DNA of 64,000 bases from NCBI RefSeq assembly GCF_008298035.1, contig NZ_CP042910.1:5533001-5597000 (forward strand), in the 5' to 3' direction. The stretch comes from Gimesia maris (lineage in GTDB: Bacteria > Planctomycetota > Planctomycetia > Planctomycetales > Planctomycetaceae). Both the position numbers and the translations under genes were made by a program. The notes under the pieces were generated by a model. The model had not been told where the DNA came from, did not search any database, and saw only the letters and a list, made by a program, of their open reading frames with translations. Each line of letters opens with the position of its first letter. Position 1 is the stretch's first letter. Positions 1 to 15,381 of this stretch are shown here, one piece after another.

Positions 1-389
1 CGAAAGATATTGCTGTACTGACTGCGACGGACATCGTAAAAGCCATACATGCCGGCAATCCACTGGTCGTTTACCATGCGGCGATAGGCCAGACCGAAGT
101 TTCCTTCGGCGGAGGAATCATCAAAGATATTCCCCCGCAGGTCCGCGAAGAACAGGCTTTCTTCATCCTGCGCCAGGGGAATAAACAGCAGACCCTGCCC
201 GTTATCATTCACGCCACCAGCCTGGCCGGTGAAATCAAAGTAGGCACGGTACAGATAGTCCTCTTCCTGAAACCATTCCGGCTGATATTCGGGGACCGGA
301 TCCTGGGCGTAAGAAAATGACGAGAACAACGATCCCATTCCTGTCAGCAGTAACAGAATCAGCAAACGTCTCAATGAGCGGGTGTGCAT
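1..389 (-). CDS. Inverse autotransporter-like beta-barrel protein (5' part only)
   Basis: Read from the complementary strand, an ATG at 387-389 opens a frame that runs off the left edge of the window. The product begins with a basic, then very hydrophobic segment ending in SYA-QD, a good signal peptide. The next ~100 residues contain FADLRG, then EGNFGLAYR, then GMYGFYDVRRS. This spacing of aromatic beta-strands is what I know from the beta-barrel of inverse autotransporters (intimin/invasin type), which are annotated in several planctomycetes. The predicted location is the outer membrane. Only ~129 residues are visible, so the passenger and the end of the barrel cannot be judged. Family assignment is by pattern recall and is fairly but not fully secure. 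Confidence 0.65.
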   Translation of the reverse strand, partial: MHTRSLRRLLILLLLTGMGSLFSSFSYAQDPVPEYQPEWFQEEDYLYRAYFDFTGQAGGVNDNGQGLLFIPLAQDEESLFFADLRGNIFDDSSAEGNFGLAYRRMVNDQWIAGMYGFYDVRRSQYSNIF

Positions 390-620: not shown

Positions 621-2096
621 TCAGAAAGAACAATAACTCGAAAACTTAAGCCCCGCTGTCTCCGCCCAGCGTCGCAAGACGTTCCGCTCTCTTGGATTCG
701 GCAGGCGGTTTGCTTTCCCACGCACCTCACAGATCAGATGTGGCTCTTTTCTGACTTCGATCGTAATCGCCTTTTTAAATCCCGTCTCGAGTTCAATCTG
801 CATCGACCAGATCGAACAATTGCCTTCCACACAAGAGGAAGCATAGGTCCCCACACAGTGATTCATGTGATTGCCTTCTGTATCGAGTTCATAACTGTTA
901 AGCAACTCTCGAATCACCCATCGCTTTCCAGATTGAGCCCCGTCCTCTTCATCTCGAAAATCAAACTCGGGAATTCCGCTGGGTTCCCATTCATATTCGG
1001 GAATCCGTTTTTTGTTTTCCTGATCACGGTGCCACTCATTGACATCGCGCAGCAGAGACTGAAACGTCCGGCCTTTGAGAGAATATTCATTGATGGGAGA
1101 CGAGTCTTCATCGTACTCTTCTGGCGATACTCCATATCGCTGAAAGATCAGATAATCCACGATCAGCCTGAGCTGGTCCAGTTCCAGTTACGGATGAAGG
1201 ATCAGCCATTGAATTACAGCAGACCAGAATTCATCGCGCGAGAAGCCTGGGGTTAGTCTGGTTGAGAGGATCATGCGAGCTAATCTTGCATCCCCTCCCA
1301 TTCCCAGAATCTGCCCCCAGCGAATCGCCTGTAACAGGGAGAGGTCCTGAGGTGCCCGCATGAAATAATGAGCCATTTTTTTGGTGTAAGAGATCGGCAG
1401 CGCACAGTGACGTATATTCTGTCCTTGCCCCACCTCAAGATACCAGTCCCTCCAGACCGCGCAATGCGGTGAATAATCCAGCAGCCAGACGGAATCAAAA
1501 AACAGTGGCATCCGGTATTTGACAAACAGGTGTCTTAAGAGAGAAGCAAGCTGTCGATCGACATTACTGCCACGGGGACGCCACTTTTCAACAGGGCGAA
1601 TCCAGGAACGCGCTTCAGCGGCAATGAAAACCAGTGCGGTGGAGATACAGTCCCACGGAATACCAGTCTGAACAGCATCAATGATTTTTGATTTACTGCA
1701 GTAGAGTTGAGAGGTCAACCTTATAAAAGAATCTCGTATTAATTCCGATCGATTAAGGATCGGAGATCGGTATTGATACAGTTCAGAAATATTTCGAAGC
1801 AATGGATCTGATATGGATTTCGTTTTTATGTTTGCAGAACAAACAGCGTCCAGTTTCTCGAACATCGATCGCTGTTCCTGTTTTCGCTGTTGTAGACATT
1901 TGACTGCCAGCCTGCGACGGAAATATAACATTTCTTCGCAACGTTGTCGTCGCGACTTACGCAGACCGGTGCGAAATCCATTTTCCACGCACCACTGGCG
2001 ATACTCCCCGATCGTCTTCAGGTTGAGACTCTGAAGATGCGCGAGCAGTTCAGGATCTGCTGACTGTTTTGTGGACGTTCCTTTTCTGCAGGACAT
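621..2096 (-). pseudogene. PcfJ-like protein, broken by an in-frame TAA
   Basis: The frame from ATG 2096 runs to a TAA at 1188-1190 (302 residues). The same frame continues open immediately afterwards to 621. Joined, it gives ~491 residues that align end to end with the neighbour at 2323-3612, including segments on both sides of the stop. Downstream of the stop lie MNHCVGTYASSC, CSIWSMQ and EVRGKANRLPNP, the hallmark core of PcfJ-like proteins (named after a conjugative plasmid gene; biochemical role unknown). A single C-to-T change of a CAA codon would explain the TAA. The downstream part could start only at a GTG (1158-1160) with no clear ribosome site. I infer a nonsense-mutated paralogue; readthrough or a sequencing error are alternatives. 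Confidence 0.8.
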
Positions 2097-2322: not shown

Positions 2323-3612
2323 TCAGACCGATTTACTGAACGTCAAACACTCCTGGAGCGCCCAGCGGTTTAAAACCTGTCGGACCGTCGGATTGGGCTC
2401 ACAGTTATTTTTTCCCCGCGCCTCGAATATCACTTTCTTCTGAGGCAGGACTTCAATCGTCAGCTGACGCCGCCGTCGCTGACCGGCTTTGACTTTCATC
2501 GACCAGATGGTGGTTTTCCGGCGGACACATTCATTCAGATATGTCTCCACACAATGATTCATGATCTTGCTTTCAATCTGTAATTGTCGCGGCGTGAGGA
2601 CTTCCTCAATACTCCAGATCTGCCCTTCGAGTTCGCACCTGAATTCACCAATCGCACTCCTCCGCCAGGGGAAATCGAGTGGGTCGACTTCCGGCGGCGG
2701 CATCATTCCTTTTTCAATCAGATCTGATCTCCAGTGAACCATATGCCTCCGAAGCGACATCAGCGAACGACCTTTCAAAGAAAAATCAGGTTGTACCGGA
2801 CAAGAACCGGCTCCTTTTCCCCAGATTTTTTCAGCGGGTTCAAAGCGTTGTTGAAAAATAAATTCGACGATCTGCACTATCTCATCCGCAGAAATCGGTT
2901 GATTCTGGATCAGAAATCGAATGACGGTTTCCCAGAAAGGCTCATCAGTCACAAGTTCATCTAAGCGAGACCGCTGGATCAGAACGCGTGCCAGTCGCTC
3001 GTCCCCTTGCATGCCCAGAATCTGAGACCACCGTAGCGCCGCCTGCGGTGACAGGTCAACCGGGGCGTGCATAAAGAATCCCGCCATTCGTTTTGTCAAA
3101 TGCAGATTCTTCAGATAATGAAACTGACGAATGCTTTTGCCTTGCGCCAGAAACCTGTAAAGAGTGATCCCCCAAAGGTAATCGCTCTCAGTTGACCACC
3201 ATGCTTTCGCCAGGTAATCCGGAACAGGGTAACGATCAAACAGGTGTTTAACCAGAGATTGCATCTGCAGGAACGGATTCTGCGTGGCCACCTGCCATGT
3301 TTCTGGATGTTTGATCCAGTTACGACGATACATCGCTATCCTGTAACAGGCTTTAATAATCTGTTCGTGATCGATGGGACAGACTGCCTTTTGGATAGCA
3401 AAGCGTGGGGAGAGCAGGTTGGTTCGTCTGCAAATAACTTCGATCAGACGCCAGTACTGATTTCGCACCTTCCCTGAGGAGCGGGCATATTGCGTGACCA
3501 GTTCATCTACCCTGCGGGCAGCGTAATGTTTTCGGTTTTGAGATATCATGATACCGTACTGAAAATAAGGAATAATCAGACCTGCGATGCGCATACATCG
3601 CCCCAAAGCCAT
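2323..3612 (-). CDS. PcfJ-like protein (intact paralogue)
   Basis: Up to 429 residues. The C-terminal third carries the PcfJ-like signature: MNHCVETYLNEC, TTIWSMKV, LTIEVLPQKKVIFEARGKNN and a terminal RWALQE helix. The N-terminal part is helical, with the motif LSPQAALRWSQILGMQGDERLAR that recurs in the broken gene next door, so the two are a tandem duplication. PcfJ itself is encoded on conjugative plasmids, but related proteins are scattered in chromosomes and their activity is not established. The start is uncertain: ATG at 3612, 3594 and 3549 are in frame and none has a strong Shine-Dalgarno. The first ~21 residues could be untranslated. Confidence 0.75.
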   Translation of the reverse strand: MALGRCMRIAGLIIPYFQYGIMISQNRKHYAARRVDELVTQYARSSGKVRNQYWRLIEVICRRTNLLSPRFAIQKAVCPIDHEQIIKACYRIAMYRRNWIKHPETWQVATQNPFLQMQSLVKHLFDRYPVPDYLAKAWWSTESDYLWGITLYRFLAQGKSIRQFHYLKNLHLTKRMAGFFMHAPVDLSPQAALRWSQILGMQGDERLARVLIQRSRLDELVTDEPFWETVIRFLIQNQPISADEIVQIVEFIFQQRFEPAEKIWGKGAGSCPVQPDFSLKGRSLMSLRRHMVHWRSDLIEKGMMPPPEVDPLDFPWRRSAIGEFRCELEGQIWSIEEVLTPRQLQIESKIMNHCVETYLNECVRRKTTIWSMKVKAGQRRRRQLTIEVLPQKKVIFEARGKNNCEPNPTVRQVLNRWALQECLTFSKSV

Positions 3613-3716
3613 ATCGTTAGCACAAAGTGCAGTGGATATGCTCGCTTCAGATTCGTCAGATCAAACCAGTACGGATTCGCATGAATAACACCTCGTCGTT
3701 CAATATTCAGACAAAC

Positions 3717-3747
3717 ACACGGGAGAACCAGTCTCCGGTTCTCGTGT
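3717..3747. other. Stem-loop upstream of 3847 gene
   Basis: ACAC, GG, GAGAACC, a 7-nt loop, GGTTCTC, GTGT: a perfect 7-bp inner stem extended by 4 bp across a GG bulge. It lies between the divergent genes at 3612 and 3847, just upstream of a TATAAT hexamer at 3768-3773. No T-run follows on either strand, so a terminator is unlikely; an operator or an RNA leader element are possible. Confidence 0.4.
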
Positions 3748-3767
3748 CATTGCTGGGGAGCAGATGA

Positions 3768-3773
3768 TATAAT
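3768..3773 (+). promoter_or_regulatory. Possible -10 box (TGATATAAT)
   Basis: A TATAAT hexamer preceded by TGA lies ~74 nt upstream of the 3847 start codon and just after the stem-loop at 3717-3747. No good -35 hexamer sits 16-18 nt further upstream, so this would have to be an extended -10 type promoter. Confidence 0.3.
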
Positions 3774-3846
3774 CCCAGCTACGTTTTTCAGCAAGTTCGA
3801 CACCAATCTAGAGCTTGAGTTCGGCGTTTTTTAAGGAAATCAATTC

Positions 3847-4797
3847 ATGACAACTTCCGCTCTTCTTCGCCCTGCTGCCCGACGCGACTGGGAGAAGCGG
3901 GGAATCGCCATTCCCGGGCTGATTAGAAATGGCAATTTTTATTTCACGGAACTCAAAGCATTTGCCAATGGTCTGTTTGATGCCTGGGGTGGACTGGACC
4001 TGGACTTTCTGGATCGTAAATTCCAAAGCGGCTGGATCTCGCCCAGAATTCCAGATGGCGCCAACTTTAGTGCACACAGCCTTATTCATGGAAAGGTCAT
4101 TTCTGGAAGCTGGTCACACGACTCCAATTCACTACACCAGAGATTAGTCAATGATTTACAGAGCCTGAATCCGGGGCAACAGGATCTGATTGATTTTGAA
4201 GGTGAAGATGTCGAGATAAAAGAGGGAGTCAGATACGCCAAATATGGTTGGATCAGAACGACTCCGCAAAGAAAGCATCAATCCGAAAAATGCCCTTTGG
4301 GAGAAACCAGATATGCCTTCATCAGACAAAAGGGCCAGGTTTATCTGGTTCCTCTGTGCATCTATGCGGATGGTTTGATTGACGTTCATCCCATATTTGG
4401 TGAGGAGAAACTGGTCGATCTCCATGAACTCCAGAGGATGTTGGAATCAAATGAACTCTGCTATGCGGTTGACGATCACACTTCCATTGAAATCGATTCT
4501 TTGGGTCGATTCGAAGTCTCTGGAGTCCATCCCTGTGTCTACTCATCAGAAGACTTTATGTCAGAAATTGAGGACTCAATACTGAAACTGAACGGCGTTC
4601 CTGGTTCAATTCATCATTGTCTCTTAGTTCATCAGGAATACCAGAAAAATCAAACCCCCGAAAATAAAGAACGTTTAAAACAGGCTTATGAAGCCATTCC
4701 CGAACACAAACGGATGTATGCCGGTGATATGGATTCCAAAGATGGACCGATTCGCAGAATTATCTATGGAGACCAGGATTCCGATTACGATTTTTAG
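3847..4797 (+). CDS. Conserved hypothetical protein (316 aa)
   Basis: No signal peptide or membrane segment is seen. The N-terminal half has a repeated style: RNGNFYFTELKAFANGLFDAWGGLDLDFL, then GWISPRIPDG and LIHGKVISGSW. The middle has YAFIRQKGQVYLVPLCIYADGLIDVHP, which resembles the first block (xxYF/YLV...ADGLxD), suggesting two copies of one beta-rich module. This style resembles uncharacterised DUF-type immunity or sensor-like proteins, but I cannot name the family with confidence. The acidic C-terminus ends DQDSDYDF. It is followed 45 nt later by 4842, probably in the same transcript. Confidence 0.6.
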   Translation: MTTSALLRPAARRDWEKRGIAIPGLIRNGNFYFTELKAFANGLFDAWGGLDLDFLDRKFQSGWISPRIPDGANFSAHSLIHGKVISGSWSHDSNSLHQRLVNDLQSLNPGQQDLIDFEGEDVEIKEGVRYAKYGWIRTTPQRKHQSEKCPLGETRYAFIRQKGQVYLVPLCIYADGLIDVHPIFGEEKLVDLHELQRMLESNELCYAVDDHTSIEIDSLGRFEVSGVHPCVYSSEDFMSEIEDSILKLNGVPGSIHHCLLVHQEYQKNQTPENKERLKQAYEAIPEHKRMYAGDMDSKDGPIRRIIYGDQDSDYDF

Positions 4798-4841
4798 TAA
4801 ATTGTCTGCCTGCTTCATAATCGAGGCCAGAGAACGCAACA

Positions 4842-5633
4842 ATGACAGATCCGCATTACCCCGAACTGACAACAACTGACAGCCTGGCCTCGCTCCTGTG
4901 TCAGAAACTGGGGGAGATAGACACAAAGCTGCGCGTCGTTACTTACCGGGAAAGCATTCAAAATCCCTCAGTCGCCCCCGATGATCAGAGCGTTTTGTTC
5001 CAATACTCCCATTGGAATGTTACTTTCCAAAATTCAGAACGCTCGATCTATCTGACCTGCGCTACAGACAGGCGTTTATTTACCTGTCATTGCAGCGAAT
5101 ACGAAATCCCCCAGGCGCAAGTAAAGACAACTCATCTCGAAGAAGTGGCTCATTTGTTCCGGCTCTGGGTGTTGGAACAAATTGATTCTGCAGATTTGGC
5201 AATTGCGCGTGTCATCGGATCGGTGCAGGTCTTTCCGCCCCTGGCTGCACATAAAGTTGTCAATGCGCAATGGGACAAATATCACGACCATCTGGCTGAC
5301 GGGCACCTGGACCTGTTTGATTTTTATCAGGTCGCAAAAGTGACTCCGGAGTTGCGTCAGCTCTTTCCCTTTACCAGCATGTGGTTCTTCTGCTTCAGCC
5401 GCTGCACACATTATCCGTTCACCCGGGATTGTCCGCACGTCAGACCCAAACAGAGTTTCATAAATCACGAAGTCATACCAGGATACTACGAAGTTTTTTT
5501 GCGGGAACGCTATCTGGGAGAAGGTCCGGCGGAAAGAGCAGCACAGATTGTCGTACAGTATCTGCCGCGCAACTGCGGCCCGGCTCAGTTATGCACCGAG
5601 ACGTTTTTCAATGATCTCAGCGAACCTCACTGA
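4842..5633 (+). CDS. DUF6193-like protein
   Basis: 263 residues, predicted soluble. The C-terminal half contains YHDHLADG, then TPELRQLFPFTSMWFFCFSRC, then a PxxxGYYEVF stretch and a final QYLPRNCGPAQLCTETF. The LR-x-LFPFTS-x-x-x-x-FS core is what I recall from DUF6193, a family annotated in actinomycetes as natural-product-associated but without a known reaction. The assignment comes from memory of that motif. The neighbouring 3847 gene is also uncharacterised, so context does not add a function. Confidence 0.55.
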   Translation: MTDPHYPELTTTDSLASLLCQKLGEIDTKLRVVTYRESIQNPSVAPDDQSVLFQYSHWNVTFQNSERSIYLTCATDRRLFTCHCSEYEIPQAQVKTTHLEEVAHLFRLWVLEQIDSADLAIARVIGSVQVFPPLAAHKVVNAQWDKYHDHLADGHLDLFDFYQVAKVTPELRQLFPFTSMWFFCFSRCTHYPFTRDCPHVRPKQSFINHEVIPGYYEVFLRERYLGEGPAERAAQIVVQYLPRNCGPAQLCTETFFNDLSEPH

Positions 5634-5732
5634 AGCTGCCGTGTCTCTTTCTCAAACCATTCTGTTCTCTGACCCAGCGGAGGTGTGATATGAACCTTTC
5701 CGAATTCGACGAACGGCCCCTATTTTGAAACG

Positions 5733-5900
5733 ATGAGCAAACGCCGCACAGGCTTCCCGTCTGAAACACAGGTCAAACGGGGCGTCCGCATCGTGCATGG
5801 CGTTAAGCTGCTCGAAGAAAAACTGGGCCGCAACGATTTATGCCCCTGTGGCTCCGGCAAGCGCTTCAAAAAGTGCTGCCTCACGCGGGGCTGCTTTTGA
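5733..5900 (+). CDS. SEC-C motif mini-protein (55 aa)
   Basis: A 55-residue frame (ATG 5733, TGA 5898-5900). The C-terminus is a textbook SEC-C zinc-binding motif, [13 protein letters not shown] at residues 37-49, with four cysteine ligands. The N-terminal half is basic ([17 protein letters not shown]) and may bind nucleic acid or a partner. In larger proteins SEC-C follows SecA or sits in YchJ-like proteins; free-standing copies of this size are known but their role is unclear. It ends ~200 nt upstream of the RNA ligase operon. Confidence 0.75.
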
Positions 5901-6101
5901 CGGCGTGAACCGCAATCACTTTTTTCAGAGAATAACAACCGTGCGCAGGACTCACCGTGTGCCGGTTTTCCGTCACTGAGTTTTCACGTCAGCCGTTTTC
6001 TGCCAGAATCGACACAGAGAGTCGACACAGAGAGTCTGCGCATGCTGAAACGGCTGTGTCTGATACATCCCCATCACTTTTGTTAAAGAGAGTCCGGACA
6101 G

Positions 6102-6842
6102 ATGGGCAGTTCCCATGATCAATTTGTCAAATATCCGCGAACACCTCATCTGTTCGGCTCTACGGGGACGGCAGACGACAAACGGCTCAGCGAACAGGCT
6201 TCACTGCAGTTCATTGCCGATCCATCTCTCATCGTAGAGGAAAAGATTGACGGCACCAACGTCGGACTCCATTTCTCTCCCACGGGAGAACTCGTTCTGC
6301 AGTGTCGGGGGCACCTGATTAACGAAGGCATGCACCCGCAGTACGATCTGTTCAAGCAATGGGCCATGGTCAAACGGCCGGTCCTGGAACAGATGCTGAA
6401 AGACCGGTTCATCCTGTTCGGCGAATGGGTCTATGCCCGGCACTCGATTCACTATCGCAGTCTGCCGCACTACTTCTTTGAATTTGACATTTACGATAAA
6501 GTACAACAGGTCTTTCTCAGCCTCGCCTGCCGACTGGAACTGCTCGCAGACACCGGTATCGAAACGGTTCCCGTGATTCACACCGGCCCGCTGGCACGCA
6601 AAGACCTGGAAACGCTGATTGGCCAGTCCGCCTTTGACAGCGTCTTTGAAAATCCTTTTACCAGCAGCACAGACAACCTGATGGAAGGCGTTTATCTCCG
6701 CACCGAAGCGGGTGGAGCCGTCACCGGCAGGTCCAAGTTTGTCCGTCCCGAATTTGTAGAAAAAATCAAACAGAGCAGCCACTGGCAGCACCAGGCCATG
6801 GTCCCCAACCTGCTCTCGAAACAGGCAGATATCTGGTCATGA
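6102..6842 (+). CDS. RNA ligase (T4 Rnl2-like nucleotidyltransferase)
   Basis: 246 residues. Seals RNA ends through a covalent lysyl-AMP. Visible nucleotidyltransferase motifs: motif I EKIDGTN with the predicted adenylated lysine K48; motif III LFGEWV (~105-110); motif IIIa FFEFDIYD (125-132); motif IV EGVYLR (195-200); motif [11 protein letters not shown] with K212. Order and spacing fit the RNA_ligase family (PF09414-like), close to the minimal catalytic domain, without a large C-terminal extension. It is the first gene of a coupled set: its TGA overlaps the ATG of the kinase/HD gene (ATGA). The neighbours supply end-processing activities, so RNA repair is the likely role; substrates are unknown. 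Confidence 0.88.
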
Positions 6843-7951
6843 ACTGGCAGACACTGACAACATCGACTCTGGAGGAGATCCTGCACTGGGCCGCCACGCA
6901 GCCCTGGTGCCAGGCGATGTCAGACTGCGCGCAGGATGCCCAGTGGCACGCCGAAGGGGATGTCTGGACGCATACCCGACTCGTCTGTCGCCAGTTACCC
7001 CAACTGGATGAGTGGGCTGACTTATCAAACCGGGAACAGTCCATTCTGATCTTCACGGCACTCCTGCACGACGCCGCCAAACCGCTGACTACGCAGCTCG
7101 ATCCCGAAACCGGCCGCCTGCGCTCGCCCAAACATGCCGTAAAGGGAGAATACCTGGCGCGAAATGTTCTGCGCGGACTGGGCTGCGATCTGGAAACCCG
7201 CGAAACCATCTGCCGCCTGGTCCGTTATCATGGTCGTCCTGCGTTTCTGCTGGAAAAACCGAATCCGGAGCAGGAAGTGATTTCCCTCTCCTGGCTGGTC
7301 AACCATCATCTGCTCTACCTGTTCGCCCTGGCCGACACCCGCGGACGGACGACCGACAGCATGTCGCGTCCTGAAGAACATCTGCGGTTCTGGAAAATGA
7401 TCGCCGAGAAACAGCACTGCTTCGATCAACCCTACCCGTTCGCCAACGATCAGGCCCGATTCCTATTCTATCACTCGCCCGAACCGAACGTGCATTATGT
7501 GCCTCATGAAGACTTCAGTTGCACGGTCACTATGCTGTCCGGCCTGCCGGGCTCGGGTAAAGATACCTGGCTCGCACGGCACCGTACGGATCTGCCAACC
7601 GTCTCGCTGGATGACATTCGCGACGACCTGGACGTCGAACCGACGGACAACCAGGGAGCCGTCGTCCAATTGGCCCGGGAGCGCTGCCGCGAACTGTTGC
7701 GCGAAAAATCTGATTTCGCTTTCAACGCCACCAACCTGACCCGGCAGATCAGAAAACGCTGGCTACAGCTCTTTGCCGACTACGGTGCCCGCATCGAACT
7801 GATCTACCTGGAACCGCCGCTGGAAACGATATTGAAACAGAATCATCAACGTCCCCAGCCGGTCCCGGAAAAAGTCATACACAAACTGGTAGAAAAAGTC
7901 GAACCTCCCACACTGACCGAGGCTCATACTGTGACGTTGAACAGGAATTGA
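6839..7951 (+). CDS. HD phosphohydrolase-polynucleotide kinase-like fusion
   Basis: 370 residues in two domains. Residues ~30-200 form an HD domain: H45, the H77-D78 doublet (LLHDAAKP) and D166 (ALADTR) match the metal ligands of HD phosphohydrolases. Residues ~228-350 form a P-loop kinase with Walker [10 protein letters not shown] (235-243), then SLDDIRDDL (256-264), similar to the 5'-kinase of T4 Pnkp and bacterial Pnkp. Such a protein could phosphorylate 5'-OH ends and, through HD, remove phosphates (3' or 2',3'-cyclic), preparing broken RNA for the upstream ligase. The 4-nt overlap with the ligase gene implies translational coupling. The phosphatase assignment is inference from context. 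Confidence 0.83.
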
Positions 7952-7985
7952 TGTAAGATCAATCAAAAAAAGACAGAGTGAAACC

Positions 7986-8936
7986 ATGAACAAGCGCGTC
8001 CACTATCAGCCGAACCTGATCTATTCTGATGGCACACAGGTGGTGACAGTCCGGGATATCATCGGGCCGAACGGTCGTACGCAGCATCCGCGGGGATCGG
8101 TCGGTGTGGTGGTGCGTGCGCCGCGTGACCTGGATCACTCGTATCGCGTTAAATTTCCCGATGGTGTCGAAGTCGCCCTCAAAGCGGACGAGCTGACGCT
8201 GCTGGCCCAATATAAAGAAGGTGAGATCGGCAACAGCGAGATCAACGCGAATCGCAGTGACCTGTTCTCCCGCGTGATCTTCAAGTGCATCATTGGCTCC
8301 CGGGCCTTCAGTCTCGAGGATGAGCAGTCCGATACCGATTATCGAGGCATCTATCTGCCCCCCGCTGATCTGCAGTGGTCTCTGTACGGCGTCCCTGAAC
8401 AGCTCGACTGTCACGAAACGCAGGAAACCTACTGGGAGCTGCAGAAGTTTCTGGTCCTGGCTTTGAAAGCGAACCCGAATGTCCTGGAGTGCCTCTATAC
8501 TCCCCTGGTCGAACACGTTACGCCACTCGGCCAGGAACTGCTGGATATGCGGGATATCTTTCTGACGCGCGTCGTCTATCAGACCTACAACGGTTATGTG
8601 ATGTCGCAGTTCAAAAAGATGCAGACCGATATCAAGAACCAGGGCAAAGTCAAATGGAAACATGTGATGCACCTGATCCGGTTGTTGATCTCGGGGGTCA
8701 CGCTCCTGCGCGAAGGCTATGTCGTCGTCGATGTGGGACCACACCGGGAACAGTTGCTGGCGATCAAGCGAGGTGAAGTCCCCTGGGAAGAGACCGAGAA
8801 ATGGAGGAAGAGCCTGCACAAGGAATTTGAGCAGGCGCTGGAACAGACCCGTCTACCGGCCCGCCCCGATTATGAAACTGCGAATCACTATCTCATCAAA
8901 GCACGTCGACTGGCGACACAGGAAAAACTGCCATGA
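7986..8936 (+). CDS. YcgL-type nucleotidyltransferase with N-terminal beta domain
   Basis: 316 residues. From residue ~95 it is a DNA-polymerase-beta superfamily nucleotidyltransferase: GSRAF at 104-108, then SDTDYRG with the metal-binding aspartates D116 and D118. The rest is helical, as in proteins annotated nucleotidyltransferase/YcgL. Residues 1-80 form an extra small beta-rich module (RGSVGVVVRA, YRVKFPDGVEVALKADEL) resembling KOW/SH3-like or DUF4926 folds. The family is presumed to add nucleotides to RNA or protein; the substrate is not known. A good AAGAC...GAG-type leader precedes ATG 7986, and its TGA overlaps the next gene (ATGA). Confidence 0.8.
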   Translation: MNKRVHYQPNLIYSDGTQVVTVRDIIGPNGRTQHPRGSVGVVVRAPRDLDHSYRVKFPDGVEVALKADELTLLAQYKEGEIGNSEINANRSDLFSRVIFKCIIGSRAFSLEDEQSDTDYRGIYLPPADLQWSLYGVPEQLDCHETQETYWELQKFLVLALKANPNVLECLYTPLVEHVTPLGQELLDMRDIFLTRVVYQTYNGYVMSQFKKMQTDIKNQGKVKWKHVMHLIRLLISGVTLLREGYVVVDVGPHREQLLAIKRGEVPWEETEKWRKSLHKEFEQALEQTRLPARPDYETANHYLIKARRLATQEKLP

Positions 8937-9316
8937 ATGGAAAACAAACTGTCACACTCTTTCGACCTGTCGGGCAACAGGAACTCGATTTAATCCAGGC
9001 GTCCGGCTGGAAAGAGTTTCCCCCTCGGCTATACTGGCAACCGATTTTTTATCCTGTGCTCACGGAAGAGTATGCGATCATGATCGCCCGGGACTGGAAC
9101 ACAAAAGATCCCAATTCGGGCTATGTAGGCTATGTGCTGCAGTTCGACGTCGAATTTGACTATCTGAGCCGATACGAGCCTCAGGAAGCAGGTGGTCGCG
9201 ATCTGAAAGAATACTGGATTCCGTCAGAGGACCTGCAAGAATTTAATCAGCACATCATGGGAACGATTGACGTCATCCATGAATTTCGTCCTGTTCCACA
9301 AGAAGAATCATCATGA
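8933..9316 (+). CDS. Small ADP-ribosylation/crystallin J1-like protein
   Basis: 127 residues. The sequence TLFRPVGQQELDLIQASGW, FPPRLYWQPIFYPVL and YAIMIARDWN, followed by GYVGYVLQFDV and EYWIPSEDLQEFN, is typical of short proteins annotated as ADP-ribosylation/crystallin J1. The overall pattern, an RPVG strand, then a buried helix, then a conserved E near the end, is reminiscent of small ADP-ribosyltransferase-like folds, but no activity has been shown that I know of. It overlaps both neighbours by ATGA (8933 and 9313), so it is firmly part of the repair operon. A role in modifying or clearing RNA ends is a speculation from context. Confidence 0.68.
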   Translation: MNGKQTVTLFRPVGQQELDLIQASGWKEFPPRLYWQPIFYPVLTEEYAIMIARDWNTKDPNSGYVGYVLQFDVEFDYLSRYEPQEAGGRDLKEYWIPSEDLQEFNQHIMGTIDVIHEFRPVPQEESS

Positions 9317-10077
9317 ACTTCGATCCCCGACTTGAAAAACAGCTCAACGAACATCCTTATCCTCTGCTGTTCGCCACTATTAGTGGATCACATATCTATG
9401 GTTTTCCTTCTCCCGATTCCGATTACGACCTCCGCGGCGTACATATATTGCCGCTGGAGACCGTAATCGGTCTGAAAGTAGGCCAGGTCACTGTGGAGCG
9501 TTCGCGCGTTGATGACGGCCTGGAAATCGATCTGGTCACACACGATGTGAGCAAGTTCTTTCAACTGATGCTTAAAAAGAATGGCTACGTGCTGGAACAG
9601 CTGCTCTCGCCGCTGGTCCTGCAGGCCACTCCCGAGTATGAAGAGCTGAAAGCGCTGGCGCCCGGCTGTGTGACCAGGTATCACGCGTATCATTATCTGG
9701 GTTTCGCGGCAACGCAGTGGAAGCTGTTTCAGAAGGAAGATCCGCCCCGGGTCAAGCCCCTGCTCTACGTGTACCGGGTACTGCTCACCGGACTGCATCT
9801 GATGCGCACGGGTGAAGTGGAACCGAACCTGATCCACTTGAACGAAGAAGCGCGGCTGTCCTACATCCCCGAACTGATCGAACGCAAGCTGGAAGGTTCG
9901 GAACGCTCCACGCTGGATGCCGCCGACATGGAGTTCCATAGACGCGAATACCAGCGGCTCGTAAGCGAACTGGAACAGGCGCTGGAAACCACCAGTCTAC
10001 CCGAACAGCCAAATTCGGGTGCAGCGTTGAACGATCTGCTGGTCCGAATCCGTCTGGTTCATCGGAAAGGAGCCTGA
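9313..10077 (+). CDS. Second YcgL-type nucleotidyltransferase
   Basis: 254 residues. GSHIYG (25-30) and DSDYDLRG (35-42; D37 and D39 as metal ligands), plus an EIDLVTHD strand (~71-78) for the third carboxylate, define a minimal nucleotidyltransferase. It lacks the N-terminal beta domain of the 7986 paralogue and the two are clearly diverged, so they are probably not redundant. The ATGA overlap with the upstream gene and the abutting TTG start of the next gene show operon coupling. The target is unknown; tRNA or RNA 3' ends fit the context. Confidence 0.8.
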   Translation: MNFDPRLEKQLNEHPYPLLFATISGSHIYGFPSPDSDYDLRGVHILPLETVIGLKVGQVTVERSRVDDGLEIDLVTHDVSKFFQLMLKKNGYVLEQLLSPLVLQATPEYEELKALAPGCVTRYHAYHYLGFAATQWKLFQKEDPPRVKPLLYVYRVLLTGLHLMRTGEVEPNLIHLNEEARLSYIPELIERKLEGSERSTLDAADMEFHRREYQRLVSELEQALETTSLPEQPNSGAALNDLLVRIRLVHRKGA

Positions 10078-11286
10078 TTGAAGTATTCTGACGTTTCACC
10101 GCCCCCCGTCCCCACACCTGCCGAACAGCGCGATGCGCTGGCGAAAGGTCTGGGACGGGCCCGGCTCTGGGCAGAACAGGGGGGCCTCACAGAGACAGCA
10201 CTGCGGGAAGCGTGTCTGCAGGATCTGCGTTATGACCGCATGTGCGAAGACCTGCGGGGCGACTGGCTGTGGGAGATCATCAACGCCGCCGGCTTTCGCA
10301 ACGCGATCCGCGTCCCGCTACTGCATGCTCTGCATGATCTGTCTGATCTGTCTGATCTGTCTGATCCGGAAAACGCCAGACAGTTATGCAAGCTGGCTCA
10401 ACACTATGCTGCCAGCGGCGATACCACATTTCGAGATCTGTTGTATCAGATCGTCACTCAAAAACCACTCGCAGCCGCAGACTATGACTTTCTGGGGGAA
10501 TCGGAACTGCTGACTCTGGAGGGAGAACGCGGCTTTCTATGTGCCGCAAAATCCAGGGGAGCACAACTCGATAAATTCGACTGGGACTGGCCCGAGGAGT
10601 CATTTCTGAGAGAAGCAGGCGAACTCATCGGGGAAACACGAATCCGCGAATTACTGAGTTCCACGTCTGACCTGGATCTCAATCGATTTTTTAAGAGCTG
10701 GCAACAGCAGTTACGGGAGAAGGCCGAGCGAAAACAACAGAAGCGGCGTCACCATAAAAAACAACAGGCCCAGCAAACCGAAGGGACTTCCGTCGAAATG
10801 GTTCTCGAGGCCGCACGAGGAGAGACACACTGTTCCTGGTTTCGCAGCTGGGGCATGCAGGCTGACCTGATAGAGTTAAATGTGGTCCTTGGGGCACTCA
10901 AGTCCAGCGAGGAGCCAGCCGTTCTCCTCAACCTGATCAAAGTCTTTTCCAACCGGACACTCCCCGAATTCGACTCCCGCTTGATTGATCTCTGCCAGTA
11001 TCCCCATCCGGAATTGCAGCGCAGAGCCTGGGTAGCACTCGCTAATCTTAGCCATTCCGAAATCCGCGAGTTTGCCAACCGGCAGTTGAACGAAAACCAG
11101 CCTGTCTGTCTCTTCAGTCTGTTTATCAGAAATTACCAGGCTGGTGACGAAAACAGACTGCTGGCAGCACTCACACTGCCCGACGATGACTGGGAAAAAC
11201 ACAGTGTGCATCGAAGTGCTAAAAGAAAATCCGACGGCAGACCGCTCACGGCTGGCGATGGTCATCTACCGGTTCACTCCCTGTGA
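10078..11286 (+). CDS. HEAT-like helical repeat protein, C-terminus frameshifted
   Basis: Starts with TTG directly after the TGA of the previous gene, with GGAG 5-6 nt upstream. 402 residues as read, with no membrane segment. Residues ~240-370 are paired helices (ELQRRAWVALANLSHSEIREFA) resembling HEAT repeats. A highly basic linker (KRRHHKKQQ) lies near 220. A 9-bp triplication encodes DLSDLSDLSD near residue 90. The last ~25 residues look unlike protein-coding sequence. At the A5 run 11195-11199, removing one A joins the frame to an 85-residue downstream stretch ending at 11404 (LKENPTADRSRLAMVIYRFT, CEICRYKAVQLL). The true or ancestral product therefore probably ends at 11404 (~441 aa). 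Confidence 0.65.
   Translation: MKYSDVSPPPVPTPAEQRDALAKGLGRARLWAEQGGLTETALREACLQDLRYDRMCEDLRGDWLWEIINAAGFRNAIRVPLLHALHDLSDLSDLSDPENARQLCKLAQHYAASGDTTFRDLLYQIVTQKPLAAADYDFLGESELLTLEGERGFLCAAKSRGAQLDKFDWDWPEESFLREAGELIGETRIRELLSSTSDLDLNRFFKSWQQQLREKAERKQQKRRHHKKQQAQQTEGTSVEMVLEAARGETHCSWFRSWGMQADLIELNVVLGALKSSEEPAVLLNLIKVFSNRTLPEFDSRLIDLCQYPHPELQRRAWVALANLSHSEIREFANRQLNENQPVCLFSLFIRNYQAGDENRLLAALTLPDDDWEKHSVHRSAKRKSDGRPLTAGDGHLPVHSL
10336..10362 (+). repeat. 9-bp tandem repeat, three copies
   Basis: GATCTGTCT occurs three times in tandem inside the 10078 gene and a partial fourth copy begins at 10363. It encodes Asp-Leu-Ser repeats in frame, so copy-number change would lengthen or shorten the protein by three residues without frameshift. 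Confidence 0.9.
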
Positions 11287-11539
11287 AATCTGTCGCTATA
11301 AAGCGGTACAACTGCTGCACGAGCAGTCTGCGATTCCTGCCTGGATGGCAGAAGAATGCCGCTTTGACTCCTATGCAGACACACGCTCCCTGATATTTGC
11401 CTAACCTGAAAACGTTAAACATACTATTTTGTCAGGTTTCGATAAATGTGAATTTTTCAGACAAATTCTTGTGTCACCGGAGTTCTGTTTTAAGATGTTC
11501 TGATCTCCCTTCCTCTGATCTGAAAACAGGACTTTCTGT

Positions 11540-12271
11540 ATGAAATTTAAATCATTTTTAATGGCTGTATTTTCGTTGAGCCTCGCTTTGGCATTGATGG
11601 CTGCAGAACCAGAGCAAGCTGCAACTGATAAAAAAACGCAGGGATTAGAGTTCGATGGAAAAAACAGTTACGTCACCTTCCCTCATATCGAACTGGAAGA
11701 GTACCCTGAATTTACAATTGAAGCCTGGGTCAAAGACTGGTCGGGCCGGATCTGCTGCCAGGGAAAACAGGGAGACCCCGAAAACAGCATCTGGATCTCC
11801 ATTCGTGCGAAAGGGCACTCCACTGGCTGGGAAAGTGACAACGGGATGAATCATTCCATTCCCGTTGATCCCAATTCGATTGAAGGCTGGGATCATATTG
11901 CGATGGTTTATGATGAATTCCAACAGTCTTTGTACCTGAATGGTAAACTGATCCATCAAACGACTGCTCCCGCTCCTGGCCCCTTTGATGAAAGCCGACT
12001 GTTCTTTCTGGGGGCTCAGGAAAAGTGGGAAGACACGCAGACAAAACCAGCAGCCCTGTTCGGTAAAGGCGTCATGCGGATGTTTCGCATTTCAAAAGTC
12101 GCCCGCTATGACAAAGAATTCGAACCAGCAGACCGTTTCAAATCAGATGCAGAAACGGTCGTACTGTTCGACTTTGCCAAACCCGAGAAAGACATGCTGT
12201 TTGATGCCTCTCCGAACAAAAATAACGGTATCATCTACAATGCCAGGTGGGTTGACCTTAAGCAGGATTAG
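11540..12271 (+). CDS. Secreted LamG/concanavalin-like domain protein
   Basis: 243 residues. A signal peptide (MKFKSFLMAVF...LALMAAEP) is followed by one laminin-G-like jelly-roll domain: LEFDGKNSYVTFPH, FTIEAWVKDW, GWDHIAMVYDEFQQSLYLNGKLI and FGKGVMRMFRISKVARYDKEF are the usual strands of LamG_3-type domains. The C-terminus has VLFDFAKPEKDMLFDASPNKNNGI, the common end of this domain in planctomycetes. It probably binds carbohydrate or protein outside the cytoplasm. AGGA lies 9 nt before ATG. Its end overlaps the convergent 12258 gene by 14 nt. Confidence 0.8.
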   Translation: MKFKSFLMAVFSLSLALALMAAEPEQAATDKKTQGLEFDGKNSYVTFPHIELEEYPEFTIEAWVKDWSGRICCQGKQGDPENSIWISIRAKGHSTGWESDNGMNHSIPVDPNSIEGWDHIAMVYDEFQQSLYLNGKLIHQTTAPAPGPFDESRLFFLGAQEKWEDTQTKPAALFGKGVMRMFRISKVARYDKEFEPADRFKSDAETVVLFDFAKPEKDMLFDASPNKNNGIIYNARWVDLKQD

Positions 12272-12755
12272 ACTGTGAACTGTTACAGTCTTTCAACGTC
12301 ACCATTTCCGGTCCACAGCAACCTGACTGTGCATAAAGTTCATCTTTCGCATCGGCTTCGAGCACCACAAAGACTTCCCACTTGTGCCCATCCGGGTCGA
12401 TGGCCCAGACTTTGTCCTGGACGGCGTAACAGCAGGTGGTTGCTTCTTCCGTAACAGTCTGGATATTCGCAGCTTTGAACCGTTCGATGGCAGCGTGGAC
12501 TTCTTCTACTGATTTGACCTGGATCCCAAAATGGGCCGATCCACCCTCTAACTGAACTGCCTCCTCTGTTTCATTGAGGGTTAGATTGACGGAAGGATCC
12601 TGAGGTTCGTATTTGGCGTACCGCGGACGTTCTTTACTGGGCGTTACCCCCAGCAAAATGTTGTAGAACTGTTTTGACTGTTCCAGATTTGAAACGGTCA
12701 ACGCAATATGCACACGAAACTGGCCGGGAAACTCGGCGGCTGATTTTTGATTCAT
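12258..12755 (-). CDS. ArsI/CadI-family extradiol dioxygenase-like metalloenzyme
   Basis: 165 residues with a vicinal-oxygen-chelate (glyoxalase) fold: RVHIALTVSNLEQSKQFYNILLG at the start, HFGIQV in the middle, KVWAIDPDGHKWEVF at the end. The adjacent cysteines C108-C109 in ATTCCYAVQDKVW match the position of the vicinal cysteine pair of ArsI, the C-As lyase that removes methyl groups from trivalent organoarsenicals. The C-terminal SGCCGPE adds another pair. GGGAG precedes ATG. It sits 26 nt after arsC, at the far end of the arsenic locus, so an organoarsenical or metal detoxification role is well supported; the exact substrate is inference. Confidence 0.82.
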   Translation of the reverse strand: MNQKSAAEFPGQFRVHIALTVSNLEQSKQFYNILLGVTPSKERPRYAKYEPQDPSVNLTLNETEEAVQLEGGSAHFGIQVKSVEEVHAAIERFKAANIQTVTEEATTCCYAVQDKVWAIDPDGHKWEVFVVLEADAKDELYAQSGCCGPEMVTLKDCNSSQSNPA

Positions 12756-12781
12756 TGGATAACTCCCTTTCTGTAAAGAAT

Positions 12782-13192
12782 TCAGTTATTCAGATAGTTT
12801 TGGATTTTGGTTTTAATTTCATCCCGTACACGACGGAACATTTTCATTTTTTCTTCATCCGATCCCGTTGCATCCGCAGGATCATCGAAAGGCCAGTGTA
12901 GTGTCTGAGTGGCGCCGGTAAAAACGGGACACGATTCCTTCGCGTTATCACAGACTGTCACCACCAGATCAAATTGCTGATCGGTAAACTGTTCGAGGTG
13001 TTTACTCGTGTTCTCAGACAAATCAATGTCCAGTTCCTTCATGGCTTCAATCGCCAGTGGATGCACATATCCGGAGGGATTGGAACCAGCGGATTCAGCC
13101 TGCCATTCACCCGCTCCCAGGTTTTCCCACAGTTCCTCCGCCATCTGCGAACGACAGGAATTACCCGTACATAATACTAATACACGTTTCAT
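12782..13192 (-). CDS. arsC: Arsenate reductase, LMW-phosphatase type
   Basis: 136 residues, the normal length for thioredoxin-coupled ArsC (Bacillus/Staphylococcus type). The P-loop CTGNSCRS at 8-15 supplies the nucleophile C8. C81 and C88 (CDNAKESC) form the redox relay, and DDPADATG contains the general acid. It reduces arsenate to arsenite for export by the Acr3 pump upstream. It is co-directional with the arsI-like gene. It is separated from the upstream gene by ~120 nt that contain an interspersed repeat (13221-13303), so it may have its own promoter. Confidence 0.92.
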   Translation of the reverse strand: MKRVLVLCTGNSCRSQMAEELWENLGAGEWQAESAGSNPSGYVHPLAIEAMKELDIDLSENTSKHLEQFTDQQFDLVVTVCDNAKESCPVFTGATQTLHWPFDDPADATGSDEEKMKMFRRVRDEIKTKIQNYLNN

Positions 13193-13220
13193 TACTTTAA
13201 GATCCTTTCATAGATTATTT

Positions 13221-13303
13221 TAGAGTGTGTCCAGTTTTACTGCAGCGTCTTCAAGTCTCATTGAAACATGATAATAGCTCGGGTGACGCTATGGTTAAAT
13301 GTG
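13221..13303. repeat. Interspersed palindromic element, copy 1 (83 bp)
   Basis: Shares with 58283-58366 both ends almost perfectly: GTGTCCAGTTTTACT on the left, GACGCTATGGTTAAATGTG on the right. The ends are partly complementary (AGCGTC against GACGCT). An internal TTCAA...TTGAA hairpin occupies the position where the other copy has a different but also complementary GCTCCA...TGGAGC. It lies between arsC and the 13311 gene. No coding capacity. It looks like a small non-autonomous mobile or structured repeat. Confidence 0.7.
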
Positions 13304-13310
13304 TTGCGTT

Positions 13311-13586
13311 CTAATGACAGGCTATCGCAGATTCTAAAGCAATTTTAGCCAGGCTCAGTTTATAACAACTTTCATAATCAGCACAGAGCTGACACTTTTT
13401 CCATTGATCAATATCAACTTCAATGGATCGACTGGTGCAGACAGGAAGGACTCCCCCTTCAGGTTTTTCCACTCGGACAGTAAAGACCTGGCCTGTGTTA
13501 GCGACGTTATCGTTCAAATGCAGAGTGTCGGGAAACATGCTTCCATAACAGTCTTTGTGCTCTTCATTCATATTCATTTCATTCAC
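13311..13586 (-). CDS. Small cysteine-rich protein of the ars operon
   Basis: 91 residues, predicted cytosolic. Cysteines cluster in the C-terminal half: VCTSRS, then [16 protein letters not shown], then a terminal CH. CxxC and CxxxxxC spacing suggests metal or metalloid binding. I do not recognise a named family. The start codon overlaps the end of acr3 by 8 nt, so it is translated from the same mRNA; context suggests a role in arsenic handling, for example as a metallochaperone, but this is inference. Confidence 0.65.
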
Positions 13587-14823
13587 TCACAGTATTAGTC
13601 GTCGCTGATTTTAACGGGTCTGGATCGGAGTTCGCCTGGTGTGGAAACCAGTTTTGAGTTCGGACACAAAATTTCACCAGCATTAACATTAAGGGAACTT
13701 CGATTAATACTCCCACTACCGTTGCCAGTGCTGCTCCTGAAGAGAGTCCATATAACATGGTGGCTGTCGCAATCGCGACTTCAAAATGGTTCGAAGCGCC
13801 AATCAATGCTGTAGGAGCAGCACTTTCATAAGTCAGTTTGAACATTTTTGAAAGCACGTAGCCCAGTGCAAAAATGACCACGGTCTGGATCAACAGAGGA
13901 ATCGCAATCCAGAGTATCGTCATGGGATTGTTGAGAATCGTCTCCCCTTTGAACGAGAACAGTAGTATCAATGTTACTAACAAAGCGGCAATCGTGATCG
14001 GTGTTAATACGTGGAGAAATTTCTCTCGAAACCATGTTTCTCCCTTGCTGGCAATCAGCCATTTACGCGAAAAGAATCCTGCTACCAGAGGCAGAGCGAC
14101 ATAGACACCGATGGACAGCAATAATGCCTGCCAGGGAACAGGTAATTTCCCAACACCCAGTAGATATCCTCCCAACAGACCATACAGTACCAGCATGGTT
14201 AATGAGTTGATGGCCACCATGACCAGCGTATGTCCATCGTTGCCTTTCGCCAGAAATCCCCAGACCAGTACCATCGCGGTACAGGGAGCGATGCCCAGCA
14301 GAATACAACCCGCCAGGTAACTTCTCCAGAGAGGCACTTCGAGCATTTTCACACCATCAATGAGCACGACTTTCCCGGATCCATATTCAGCACCGACAGC
14401 GAGATCTGCGCCGAATGGCATTTTGACATAGTCCACCGCCTCCGGTCCGATGAATGTCAAAAACAGGGTTCCCAGGAAAAAGCTCGCAATGGCATACATG
14501 GTAAATGGTTTGATGGCCCAGTTGATAAACAACGTCAGACCGACGGGACGAATTGCCTTACCGGCCTTGAGAACTTCGGCAAAGTCGATTTTCACCATAA
14601 TGGGGTACATCATGAAAAACAGACAGACCGCGATCGGAATGGAAACGACGGGCGCATCATTCACATAGATCGCCATCCCATCCAGGGTCTGGGCAATCCC
14701 CGGCGCAACCTTGCCTAAGACAATCCCCCCCACGATACACAGTCCGACCCACAGGGTCAGATATCGTTCAAAGAGACTCATACTTTTTGTCTCATTTACC
14801 GGACAATTACTGGCACTACTCAT
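13579..14823 (-). CDS. acr3: Acr3-family arsenite efflux permease
   Basis: 414 residues with ten hydrophobic segments. Characteristic pieces are [18 protein letters not shown] at the N-terminus, [23 protein letters not shown] and the conserved [18 protein letters not shown] with the catalytically important cysteine. It exports As(III) across the inner membrane. GGGAG is 9 nt before the ATG. It begins 7 nt after the stop of the second arsC and overlaps the downstream cysteine-rich gene, so it is the core of the operon. Confidence 0.95.
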
Positions 14824-14830
14824 CGTCGTA

Positions 14831-15295
14831 TTACTCCCTGAACTCGAATTGATTTTCGGTTTCCGAACTGATTTTATTTTTACTGATCCAGTCCAGTATC
14901 CGTGTTTCTATCTGATCTCTCACAGACCGGAATTTCATGATTCGCTCCAGATCGTCACCGACCGAATCAACCGGATCTTCAAATCTCCAGGATTCTGATT
15001 GAAGTGAAAATGGCCACACATGAGGACAGGAACTCTCCGCCTTTTCACAGACAAATATCACCCATTTGGGACTTGCTTTTCCGAGATACTGAGTGAGAGA
15101 TTTTGACTGGTGCTCTGAAATATCAATCCCGACCTCTTGCATAACCTGAATCGTCAGAGGATGGACTCCCTGAGGGTTCAATCCGGCACTATGTGCATCA
15201 TAAATATTTCCTGCATGCTGTCTCAGAAACGCTTCTGCCATCTGGCTTCGCGCAGAATTTCCAGTACAGAGAAACAAAACCATTGGTTTACCCAT
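14831..15295 (-). CDS. arsC: Second arsenate reductase, LMW-phosphatase type
   Basis: 154 residues. P-loop CTGNSARS at 10-17 with nucleophile C10; redox partners C83 and C90 (CEKAESSC); [10 protein letters not shown] carries the acid. Compared with the 12782 gene it lacks the second P-loop cysteine (Ala replaces Cys13) and has a longer C-terminal tail, so it is a diverged paralogue rather than a recent copy. Such forms are also annotated as arsenate-mycothiol or thioredoxin-type reductases. It is immediately followed by acr3. Confidence 0.88.
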
Positions 15296-15381
15296 TGGTG
15301 TTCCTTTTTAAATAGAGGGTCCTGTTAGACTTCAATATAAAACCGAGACAAAACCAGTCATCCAACTGCATCTGCTCAGCC

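Follow-up and report, generated by a model that had tools for sequence, protein, structure and literature searches.

An operon of six genes in a 64,000-nucleotide stretch of the Gimesia maris genome (the window; genome G000, a single contig of 7.8 Mb) probably encodes an RNA end-repair cassette. Its genes specify, in order, an ATP-dependent RNA ligase (LIG), a fusion of an HD phosphoesterase and a polynucleotide-kinase-like domain (HD-Pnk), two nucleotidyltransferases of the RlaP family (RlaP1 and RlaP2) that flank a small protein of predicted ADP-ribosyltransferase (ART) fold (CJ1), and a broken HEAT-like repeat protein (Table 1). A previous sequence-only reading of the window had proposed that the ligase, the HD-kinase, and the nucleotidyltransferases form an RNA end-repair set, and this proposal was supported because the families, motifs, and neighbours of the genes fit it; RlaP had already been named an RNA-repair family. 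Orthologous or related loci (numbered L below, with genomes numbered G) contain Hen1, Pnkp, and Thg1.

For every activity, for the substrates, and for the reaction of CJ1, we infer the following scheme. RNA cut by a metal-independent RNase would end in a 2',3'-cyclic phosphate on one side of the break and a 5'-OH on the other; HD-Pnk would clear the 3' end with its HD domain and phosphorylate the 5' end with its kinase domain. RlaP2, paired with a degenerate RlaP1 carrying an extra N-terminal domain, would re-add lost 3' nucleotides, and the ATP ligase LIG would seal the ends. CJ1 may be an NAD+-using ART-fold enzyme whose targets are RNA ends or 2' groups at or close to the site of repair. 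The same operon in relatives also encodes Pnkp, which would add a second enzyme for healing and sealing, and Hen1, a methylase that would protect; the window lineage, having presumably lost Hen1-Pnkp, and with its HEAT gene broken, would retain a reduced kit of enzymes that heal, fill, and seal.

All six open reading frames (ORFs) listed in the sequence-only reading were present at their positions, and the close coupling claimed for them was confirmed by the junction sequences: 4-bp ATGA overlaps occur at three junctions (LIG/HD-Pnk, RlaP1/CJ1, and CJ1/RlaP2), the RlaP2 stop TGA directly abuts the HEAT start TTG, and the remaining spacing is short. From this gene spacing, we infer that the operon forms one transcript. 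A search of Rfam at E-values up to 1 over window positions 1-20000 gave no noncoding RNA match.

Table 1. Features of the operon and its upstream gene, with positions counted from the first nucleotide of the window (aa, amino acids; AF2, AlphaFold2)
Feature	Position	Strand	Evidence and remarks
SEC-C motif protein, 55 aa, zinc-ribbon-like	5733..5900	+	PF02810, 2.3e-10; 201 bp upstream of ligase
LIG, ATP-dependent RNA ligase	6102..6842	+	PF09414 RNA_ligase, 9.9e-33; RNA ligase matches in PHROG
HD-Pnk, N-terminal HD phosphoesterase domain and C-terminal polynucleotide-kinase-like domain	6839..7951	+	PF01966, 4e-7; PF13671 AAA_33, 1.8e-23
34-bp junction HD-Pnk/RlaP1	7952..7985	+	site of Hen1 and Pnkp (plus variable extra genes) in relatives
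RlaP1 nucleotidyltransferase	7986..8936	+	PF10127, 6.3e-41 over residues 95-304
CJ1, 127 aa, predicted ADP-ribosyltransferase fold	8933..9316	+	AF2 model; invariant R11, Y40, E93
RlaP2 nucleotidyltransferase, three acidic residues intact	9313..10077	+	PF10127, 1.7e-55
HEAT-like repeat protein, broken	10078..11404	+	frames 10078-11286 and 11144-11404; DNA alignment with relatives

The ligase, HD-Pnk, and the RlaP pair

The ligase had been described as Rnl-type with K48 in a KIDG motif, and its Pfam match agrees: motif I reads K48-I-D-G, and K48, D50, G51, E195, G196, and K212 were invariant in an alignment of 12 sequences, where K212 stands in the motif V region. The second gene likewise held both parts of the proposed HD and P-loop kinase fusion, with PF01966 at residues 54-136 and PF13671 at 230-357, i.e., an HD phosphohydrolase N-terminal to a P-loop polynucleotide kinase in one chain, and its H77-D78, D166, and G240-K241 were invariant in 11 aligned sequences. 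Sequence searches of the PDB returned no close solved relative of LIG, RlaP2, or CJ1, and HD-Pnk was matched only by its separate parts.

Across 324 sampled genomes of the phylum, HD-Pnk copies counted as full-length (those covering at least about 90% of the query; a split copy in G126 was left out) stood at 15 places in 14 genomes and adjoined LIG at all 15, at one of which (in G009) a transposase ORF splits the gene. LIG was present in 21 of the 324 genomes, among them all 14 with HD-Pnk (Fisher p 1e-19; here and below, genome sets for co-occurrence were entered by hand and the Fisher tests ignore relatedness). The view that all 154 genomes with an HD-Pnk match carry HD-Pnk was rejected; apart from the 15 long ones, the listed matches were partial, and these partial matches, most of them covering the HD region only, were taken as putative CCA-adding enzymes. 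HD-Pnk matches also occurred in 42 plasmid records, with long homologues on plasmids that include those of D. radiodurans, and with a ligase match upstream in all three neighbourhoods examined. Viral scans with the single HD-Pnk or RlaP1 protein as query found no relative, and a scan with an HD-Pnk alignment found 100, the best 80 of which were kept. Among the 14 long viral matches that were mapped (L156-L168 and L213, some of them near-duplicates, with the long L170 and L189 left out), six had a ligase match, five of these 1-2 kb upstream and one just downstream, and two had an RlaP match directly downstream; Pfam confirmed loci L156, L165, and L167. In L167 and L168 (5902-8479), which are probably near-duplicate viral contigs, an RlaP gene directly follows HD-Pnk.

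The company of the ligase and of HD-Pnk also bears on the nature of the substrate. DRB0098 of D. radiodurans has the same HD and kinase architecture, and it is stated in PMC1997131 to phosphorylate DNA 5' ends in vitro and to sit in a putative DNA repair operon; the HD-Pnk of the window matches D. radiodurans plasmids. The cassette could accordingly mend nicked DNA or RNA-DNA hybrids, as proposed for the DRB0098-0100 operon, but we regard this as quite improbable, given that the ligase belongs to the RNA_ligase Pfam family and that the neighbours here or in related loci (RlaP, Hen1, Pnkp, Thg1, Pth2, and RtcB) are RNA or tRNA enzymes.

A SEC-C gene not included in the earlier gene list lies upstream of the ligase. 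Its 55-aa product varies little across genera: the C-terminal peptide is identical in 11 of the 12 loci from Gimesia and also in L007, L041, L042, and L045; in the twelfth Gimesia locus (G007, L100), the match lies inside a longer ORF with a different end. Because the gene accompanies LIG-HD-Pnk pairs in L041, L042, and L045, where RlaP is absent, it was assigned to this pair rather than to the RlaP part of the operon. SEC-C motifs are zinc-binding and form the contact of SecA with the ribosome; the protein might tether repair to ribosomes.

The two genes previously called YcgL-type nucleotidyltransferases, the third and the fifth, both proved to be PF10127 RlaPs, scoring 141.1 (RlaP1) and 188.8 bits (RlaP2) against a gathering score of 23 bits; the RlaP model also responded in a B. 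subtilis control, YcgL being the B. subtilis member of the family. RlaP1 has an N-terminal extension of approximately 94 aa before the RlaP match, which is SH3-like by eye. Both Asp of the pol-beta motif G-S/A-x-n-D-x-D were invariant in 38 RlaP1, 41 RlaP2, and 9 single RlaP sequences (the groups having been picked by motif search). At the third catalytic position, assigned from a MAFFT alignment, the RlaP1 group had Gln in 29 sequences (including the window), Asp in 5, Glu in 3, and Ser in 1, the RlaP2 group had Asp in 38 and Glu in 3, and the single RlaPs always had Asp. An AlphaFold model of RlaP1 built from 5 sequences had a predicted local distance difference test (pLDDT) value of 48.8 and was not used. 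We know of no demonstration so far of nucleotidyltransferase activity in an RlaP; its proposed role, according to PMC7824862, is that of restoring nucleotides.

RlaP occurred in 70 of the 324 genomes (69 over the cut-off), and an adjacent RlaP pair, defined as two PF10127 matches on the same contig and strand a few kb apart, in 29 (G182 and G273 rest on partial matches, and G075 and the fragmented G170 and G332 were excluded). In L106 and L110, both RlaP catalytic motifs lie within one ORF, and these fusions argue for a physical partnership of RlaP1 and RlaP2, in which RlaP1 may be read as a partner or regulatory subunit. Pnkp was commoner among genomes with the pair (12 of 29) than among the others (14 of 295, relatedness uncorrected), and the pair stood with Hen1 and Pnkp in L104, L108, and L113, from other genera, and in L008. 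L007, from another genus outside the phylum sample, carries both HD-Pnk and the RlaP pair. An R2K-clade ATP-grasp protein is encoded at L104 9527-10432 between RlaP1 and RlaP2, the place held elsewhere by CJ1.

CJ1 and its predicted fold

CJ1 had no Pfam or NCBIfam match up to E 1 and no PHROG match up to E 0.1, and its AF2 model was confident (pLDDT 91). A Foldseek search of the PDB with this model put three entries for Tpt1 and one for APE0204, from the same organism, in its top four rows (top Tpt1/KptA entry, E 1.5e-3, probability 1.00), with RhsP2 and other ARTs also listed. VIA aligned CJ1 best with RhsP2 (Z 9.2, 2.3 A over 94 residues), followed by diphtheria toxin (Z 7.9), TreTu (7.4), and Tpt1 (7.1). 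ARTs, recognized by title or known identity, made up at least 45 of the 50 rows shown (Z 5.6-9.2, where the tool warns that Z < 8 can be common), and CC0527 (three rows), VPA0770, and SAIP were left unassigned. Because the structural matches consistently fall in one superfamily, we accepted an ART fold as the prediction for CJ1, which bears out the earlier guess that the small protein is ART-like, at the level of a predicted model.

The catalytic triad of the ART superfamily reads R/H - S/Y - E, and the three CJ1 residues in Table 1 were invariant in an alignment of 22 CJ1 sequences. RhsP2 is reported in PMC12340436 to modify RNA 2'-OH groups using R1490, Y1524, and E1576, a triad that the Arg-Tyr-Glu of CJ1 resembles in sequence: R11 falls on R1490 if the first strand is ungapped (ranges 3..116 to 1482..1614), and the correspondence of Tyr and Glu is proposed from spacing; the triad Tyr could also be Y47. 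Tpt1, in turn, has two lobes and an Arg-His-Arg-Arg tetrad, as described with its chemistry in PMC6333775. CJ1, at 127 aa, has neither the N-terminal RNA lobe nor this tetrad, and it aligned only with chain residues 91-186 of the Tpt1 structure 8tg3. That CJ1 nevertheless acts like Tpt1/KptA, removing 2'-phosphates at RNA junctions or ends, appears unlikely; Tpt1 entries head its Foldseek list and Tpt1/KptA is an RNA-repair ART (PMC9503650), but such an enzyme would be redundant if 2' or 3' phosphates are substrates of the HD domain in HD-Pnk.

CJ1 was found in 25 of the 324 phylum genomes (some as partial matches), at 26 loci in a scan of GTDB contigs, and at 17 viral loci. It lies between RlaP genes in the window, L006/L048 (one genome), L049, L007, L008, L009, and L113, the last with the operon order Hen1-RlaP1-CJ1-RlaP2-HEAT-Pnkp, so that this placement recurs in several genera of planctomycetes, and it adjoins RlaP in 6 of the 26 GTDB contig loci (L006-L009, L029, and L030). 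Among the phylum genomes with CJ1, 12 of 25 have RlaP (p 0.002) and 6 of 25 have the RlaP pair (p 0.016). The Bacteroidetes locus L030 has the order Band_7, RtcB, kinase, Thg1 (panel match only), CJ1, RlaP, and RlaP1-like; L029 starts in the same way before its sequence ends. The loci searched with the panel models were also those from which the models had been built; for the main loci, single-sequence matches agree with the panel results. Twelve plasmid records had a CJ1 match, and neither of the two neighbourhoods examined contained a panel RNA-repair gene. In L113 (9335-11016), an AbiEii-type nucleotidyltransferase gene and a gene for a 210-aa protein without a Pfam match stand between RlaP1 and CJ1.

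The sequence-only reading had also linked the operon to phage defence, a suggestion that found no support here: PADLOC gave no convincing defence gene at the locus, with no match up to E 0.1 for the six operon proteins and three of four neighbours (the SEC-C protein was not scanned), and only two weak matches (E 0.014 and 0.017) for the fourth, upstream neighbour. This result also bears on whether CJ1 is a toxin or toxin-like ART restrained by its neighbours, in a conflict system and not in housekeeping repair. Its best structural match is a toxin domain, it occurs apart from RlaP in many genomes and viral contigs, and L113 has the AbiEii-type gene near it; however, CJ1 had no identified Rhs, secretion, or immunity gene as a neighbour (most of its neighbours being unannotated), and it comes and goes within an operon that is stable in other respects and has no PADLOC match. 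We consider the toxin explanation very improbable.

Several observations weigh against the RNA end-repair cassette or against a place for CJ1 in it. Promoter and terminator signals in the operon were not above shuffled expectation, and in DRB0098 the kinase activity is shown and the HD phosphatase activity unproven (as given in PMC1997131). Most RlaP-pair loci have no panel ligase, Hen1, or Pnkp nearby, and genomes that combine HD-Pnk with the RlaP pair number only 5 of 324, all of them Gimesia. The fold of CJ1 is assigned from a predicted model: its sequence profiles matched no ART structure, no Foldseek match had E < 1e-3, and approximately 5 of the 50 rows shown were plainly unrelated, at low probability. 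CJ1 lies away from RlaP in 20 of the 26 genome loci (L016 has RlaP approximately 6 kb off), and none of the 17 viral loci contains RlaP or any other panel gene. It is found in only 3 of 12 Gimesia loci, and of the six phylum genomes with both CJ1 and the pair, only G000 and G191 have them on one contig, the other four having them on different contigs. This frequent absence from RlaP company is the best argument against CJ1 in RNA repair; the best argument for it is the company of RlaP in two quite different ligase systems, which suggests that CJ1 belongs to RNA repair.

The window thus has a predicted NAD+-dependent RNA-modifying enzyme in a bacterial RNA-repair operon, beside nucleotidyltransferases. 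If CJ1 modifies RNA, RNA ADP-ribosylation, the reversal of which is treated in PMC11833690, would have a part in repair as well as in toxin action; KptA and phage sirtuins are stated to act in RNA repair (PMC9503650). In its most specific form, the proposal is that CJ1 founds a non-toxin RNA ART family acting within RNA repair, which would mark or protect with ADP-ribose the 2'-OH (the group methylated by Hen1) or the end of repaired RNA, alongside an RlaP1-RlaP2 heterodimer, across the ATP-ligase systems of planctomycetes and the RtcB-Band7 systems of Bacteroidetes. We hold this form to be rather unlikely, and the remaining probability for CJ1 reflects uncertainty on its substrate, protein included.

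The larger operon of related genomes

Both RlaP genes were found in 12 of 17 Gimesia genomes (RlaP2 query), 10 of which have Pnkp. A composite from these 12 loci, whose gene content varies and none of which has all genes, gave the order HAD phosphatase, DUF7638, DUF6193, SEC-C, LIG, HD-Pnk, U217, Hen1, U325, Pnkp, RlaP1, CJ1, RlaP2, and HEAT, with kinase-Thg1 upstream in some loci. LIG and HD-Pnk were present in 11 of the 12 loci, Hen1/Pnkp were interleaved in 10 (in one as a reduced fusion), and of the HEAT genes, 4 were long ORFs and 2 were broken or partial. U325, of approximately 325 aa and without a Pfam match, recurs at L040 11337-12317 and L007 8058-9035, flanked on one side by Hen1 or HD-Pnk and on the other by Pnkp or RlaP1. 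Of the loci mapped, the window alone showed the six genes as a contiguous set; L006/L048 and L007 have them in the same order with others interposed. On the condition set by the sequence-only reading, that homologues should not rarely co-occur, the outcome was thus mixed: the contiguous set and the combination of HD-Pnk with the RlaP pair are rare, but the parts LIG + HD-Pnk, RlaP1 + RlaP2, and RlaP1-CJ1-RlaP2 recur.

L006, a locus of genome G011, has full-length Hen1 (TIGR04074, 714 bits, cut-off 340; Hen1_L in Pfam) and full-length Pnkp (TIGR04075, 1417 bits, cut-off 750; PNKP_ligase in Pfam), and Pnkp over the TIGR04075 cut-off was found in 26 of the 324 phylum genomes. In G000, a Pnkp protein query had no match, with full-length or near-full-length copies in all six Gimesia comparison genomes, and the TIGR04075 model gave only weak partial matches (best, 35.6 bits); the only Hen1 match, of 20.7 bits, lay in the methyltransferase part and was not a true Hen1. 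Trees of the RlaP1 and RlaP2 proteins and of four genes at the DNA level grouped G000 with G014, G011, G009, G001, G005, G008, and G012 at 100% support; inside this clade, the protein tree placed it with G014 at 75%, and the DNA tree arranged it differently, at node supports of 75% and 34%. Because all seven partners of G000 in this clade have Pnkp, the simplest account is that the window lineage lost the middle part of the operon, which would make its six genes a deletion derivative. The alternative, that the six genes were gained as a unit, was rejected, as synteny and trees point to loss of the middle part.

The sixth gene had been read as a helical-repeat protein; it is indeed HEAT-like, and it is not one intact ORF. 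DNA alignment with L048, L037, and L038 revealed an 11-bp deletion near 11208 in the window, and the two frames in Table 1 are therefore those of one broken gene. The long HEAT ORF encodes 437-442 aa in the 4 Gimesia loci that have it; the longer homologue in L006 has a weak HEAT_2 match (9.4e-4, under the cut-off), and the window protein has no accepted family.

Erosion is common at these Gimesia loci. In G009 (L038, 7359-8747), the ORF that splits HD-Pnk is a DDE transposase; in G013 (L039, 10752-13877), Hen1 and Pnkp are fused in one ORF that has lost the methyltransferase domain of Hen1 and some of the Pnkp kinase domain, which suggests that HD-Pnk can replace the Pnkp kinase; and G007, the second Pnkp-less genome with the RlaP pair, is fragmented, its 11-kb contig (L100) holding the pair and traces of neighbours. 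Such erosion in related loci, together with the HEAT deletion and the absence of Pnkp and of a true Hen1 match from G000, would fit a decaying remnant, non-functional in repair. We nevertheless judge this improbable: the five genes LIG, HD-Pnk, RlaP1, CJ1, and RlaP2 are all open, with 89-97% identity to their nearest relatives, their overlapping starts are kept, and their motifs are intact except for the RlaP1 Gln, which is common to relatives. Running from the complete Hen1-Pnkp set down to the shortened form of the window, these natural loci would allow a direct comparison of the parts sufficient for repair.

The locus looks stable rather than mobile, because a LamG-like gene (Pfam) and then a glyoxalase-like gene (by eye) lie downstream of the operon in both the window and L006; ORFs of similar size lie downstream in most other Gimesia loci. 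Upstream, at window positions 3847-5633, are DUF7638/7639 and DUF6193 genes, which accompany the operon in some relatives; L040 carries both, and four other relatives carry DUF6193.

Comparison with known systems

Literature matches on RlaP, HD-Pnk, RtcB, Hen1, and ART repair described neither this operon nor CJ1 in the titles and abstract openings of the matches listed. The earlier remark that the six-gene combination is unfamiliar stood for the exact set, and it did not hold for the parts, most of which are known RNA-repair components.

The orthologous operon of L006 resembles the Pnkp-Hen1 system (TIGR04075/TIGR04074), which joins a three-domain Pnkp with a Hen1 methyltransferase, in having full-length copies of both proteins, whereas the window has neither and instead has a separate ligase, HD-Pnk, two RlaPs, and CJ1. 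The stand-alone ligase beside a stand-alone kinase/phosphatase is a likeness to the Pnkp1-Rnl-Hen1 system of Capnocytophaga (PMC4411300) and to the putative Pnkp1-Rnl-Hen1 system of Borg elements (PMC11208441). In Capnocytophaga, the healer is a homologue of T4 Pnkp and all three proteins are needed for repair in vitro, and both Pnkp-Hen1 and Pnkp1-Rnl-Hen1 repair protect by 2'-O-methylation, as stated in PMC4411300; the window, in contrast, has an HD and kinase fusion as its healer and no Hen1. That fusion resembles DRB0098, whose single chain combines HD and polynucleotide kinase domains (alignment over 93% of the query, 31% identity), but whose neighbours are a DNA-ligase-like protein and a macro-domain-like protein (as given in PMC1997131).

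Like other RlaP-containing repair systems, the window has its two PF10127 RlaPs standing with an RNA ligase, but these are diverged tandem copies on either side of a predicted ART-fold protein, and one of them lacks the third Asp, an arrangement not mentioned in the excerpted text of PMC7824862. CJ1 itself shares its predicted fold with the RNA ADP-ribosyltransferase domain of RhsP2 and with Tpt1/KptA (Z 9.2 and 7.1, respectively), and its R-Y-E residues resemble those of RhsP2; it differs from both in being a small stand-alone protein beside RNA-repair genes, and from Tpt1 in having no RNA lobe. Two further likenesses belong here: Runella HD-Pnk, which presumably has the same HD and polynucleotide kinase architecture, and the RlaPs that Burroughs and Aravind reportedly placed, in 2016, with diverse ligases and in an RtcB-Band7 system, in a work that may also mention a CJ1-like gene. 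Overall, the operon appears to be a variant of known RNA-repair systems with one new predicted component, CJ1.

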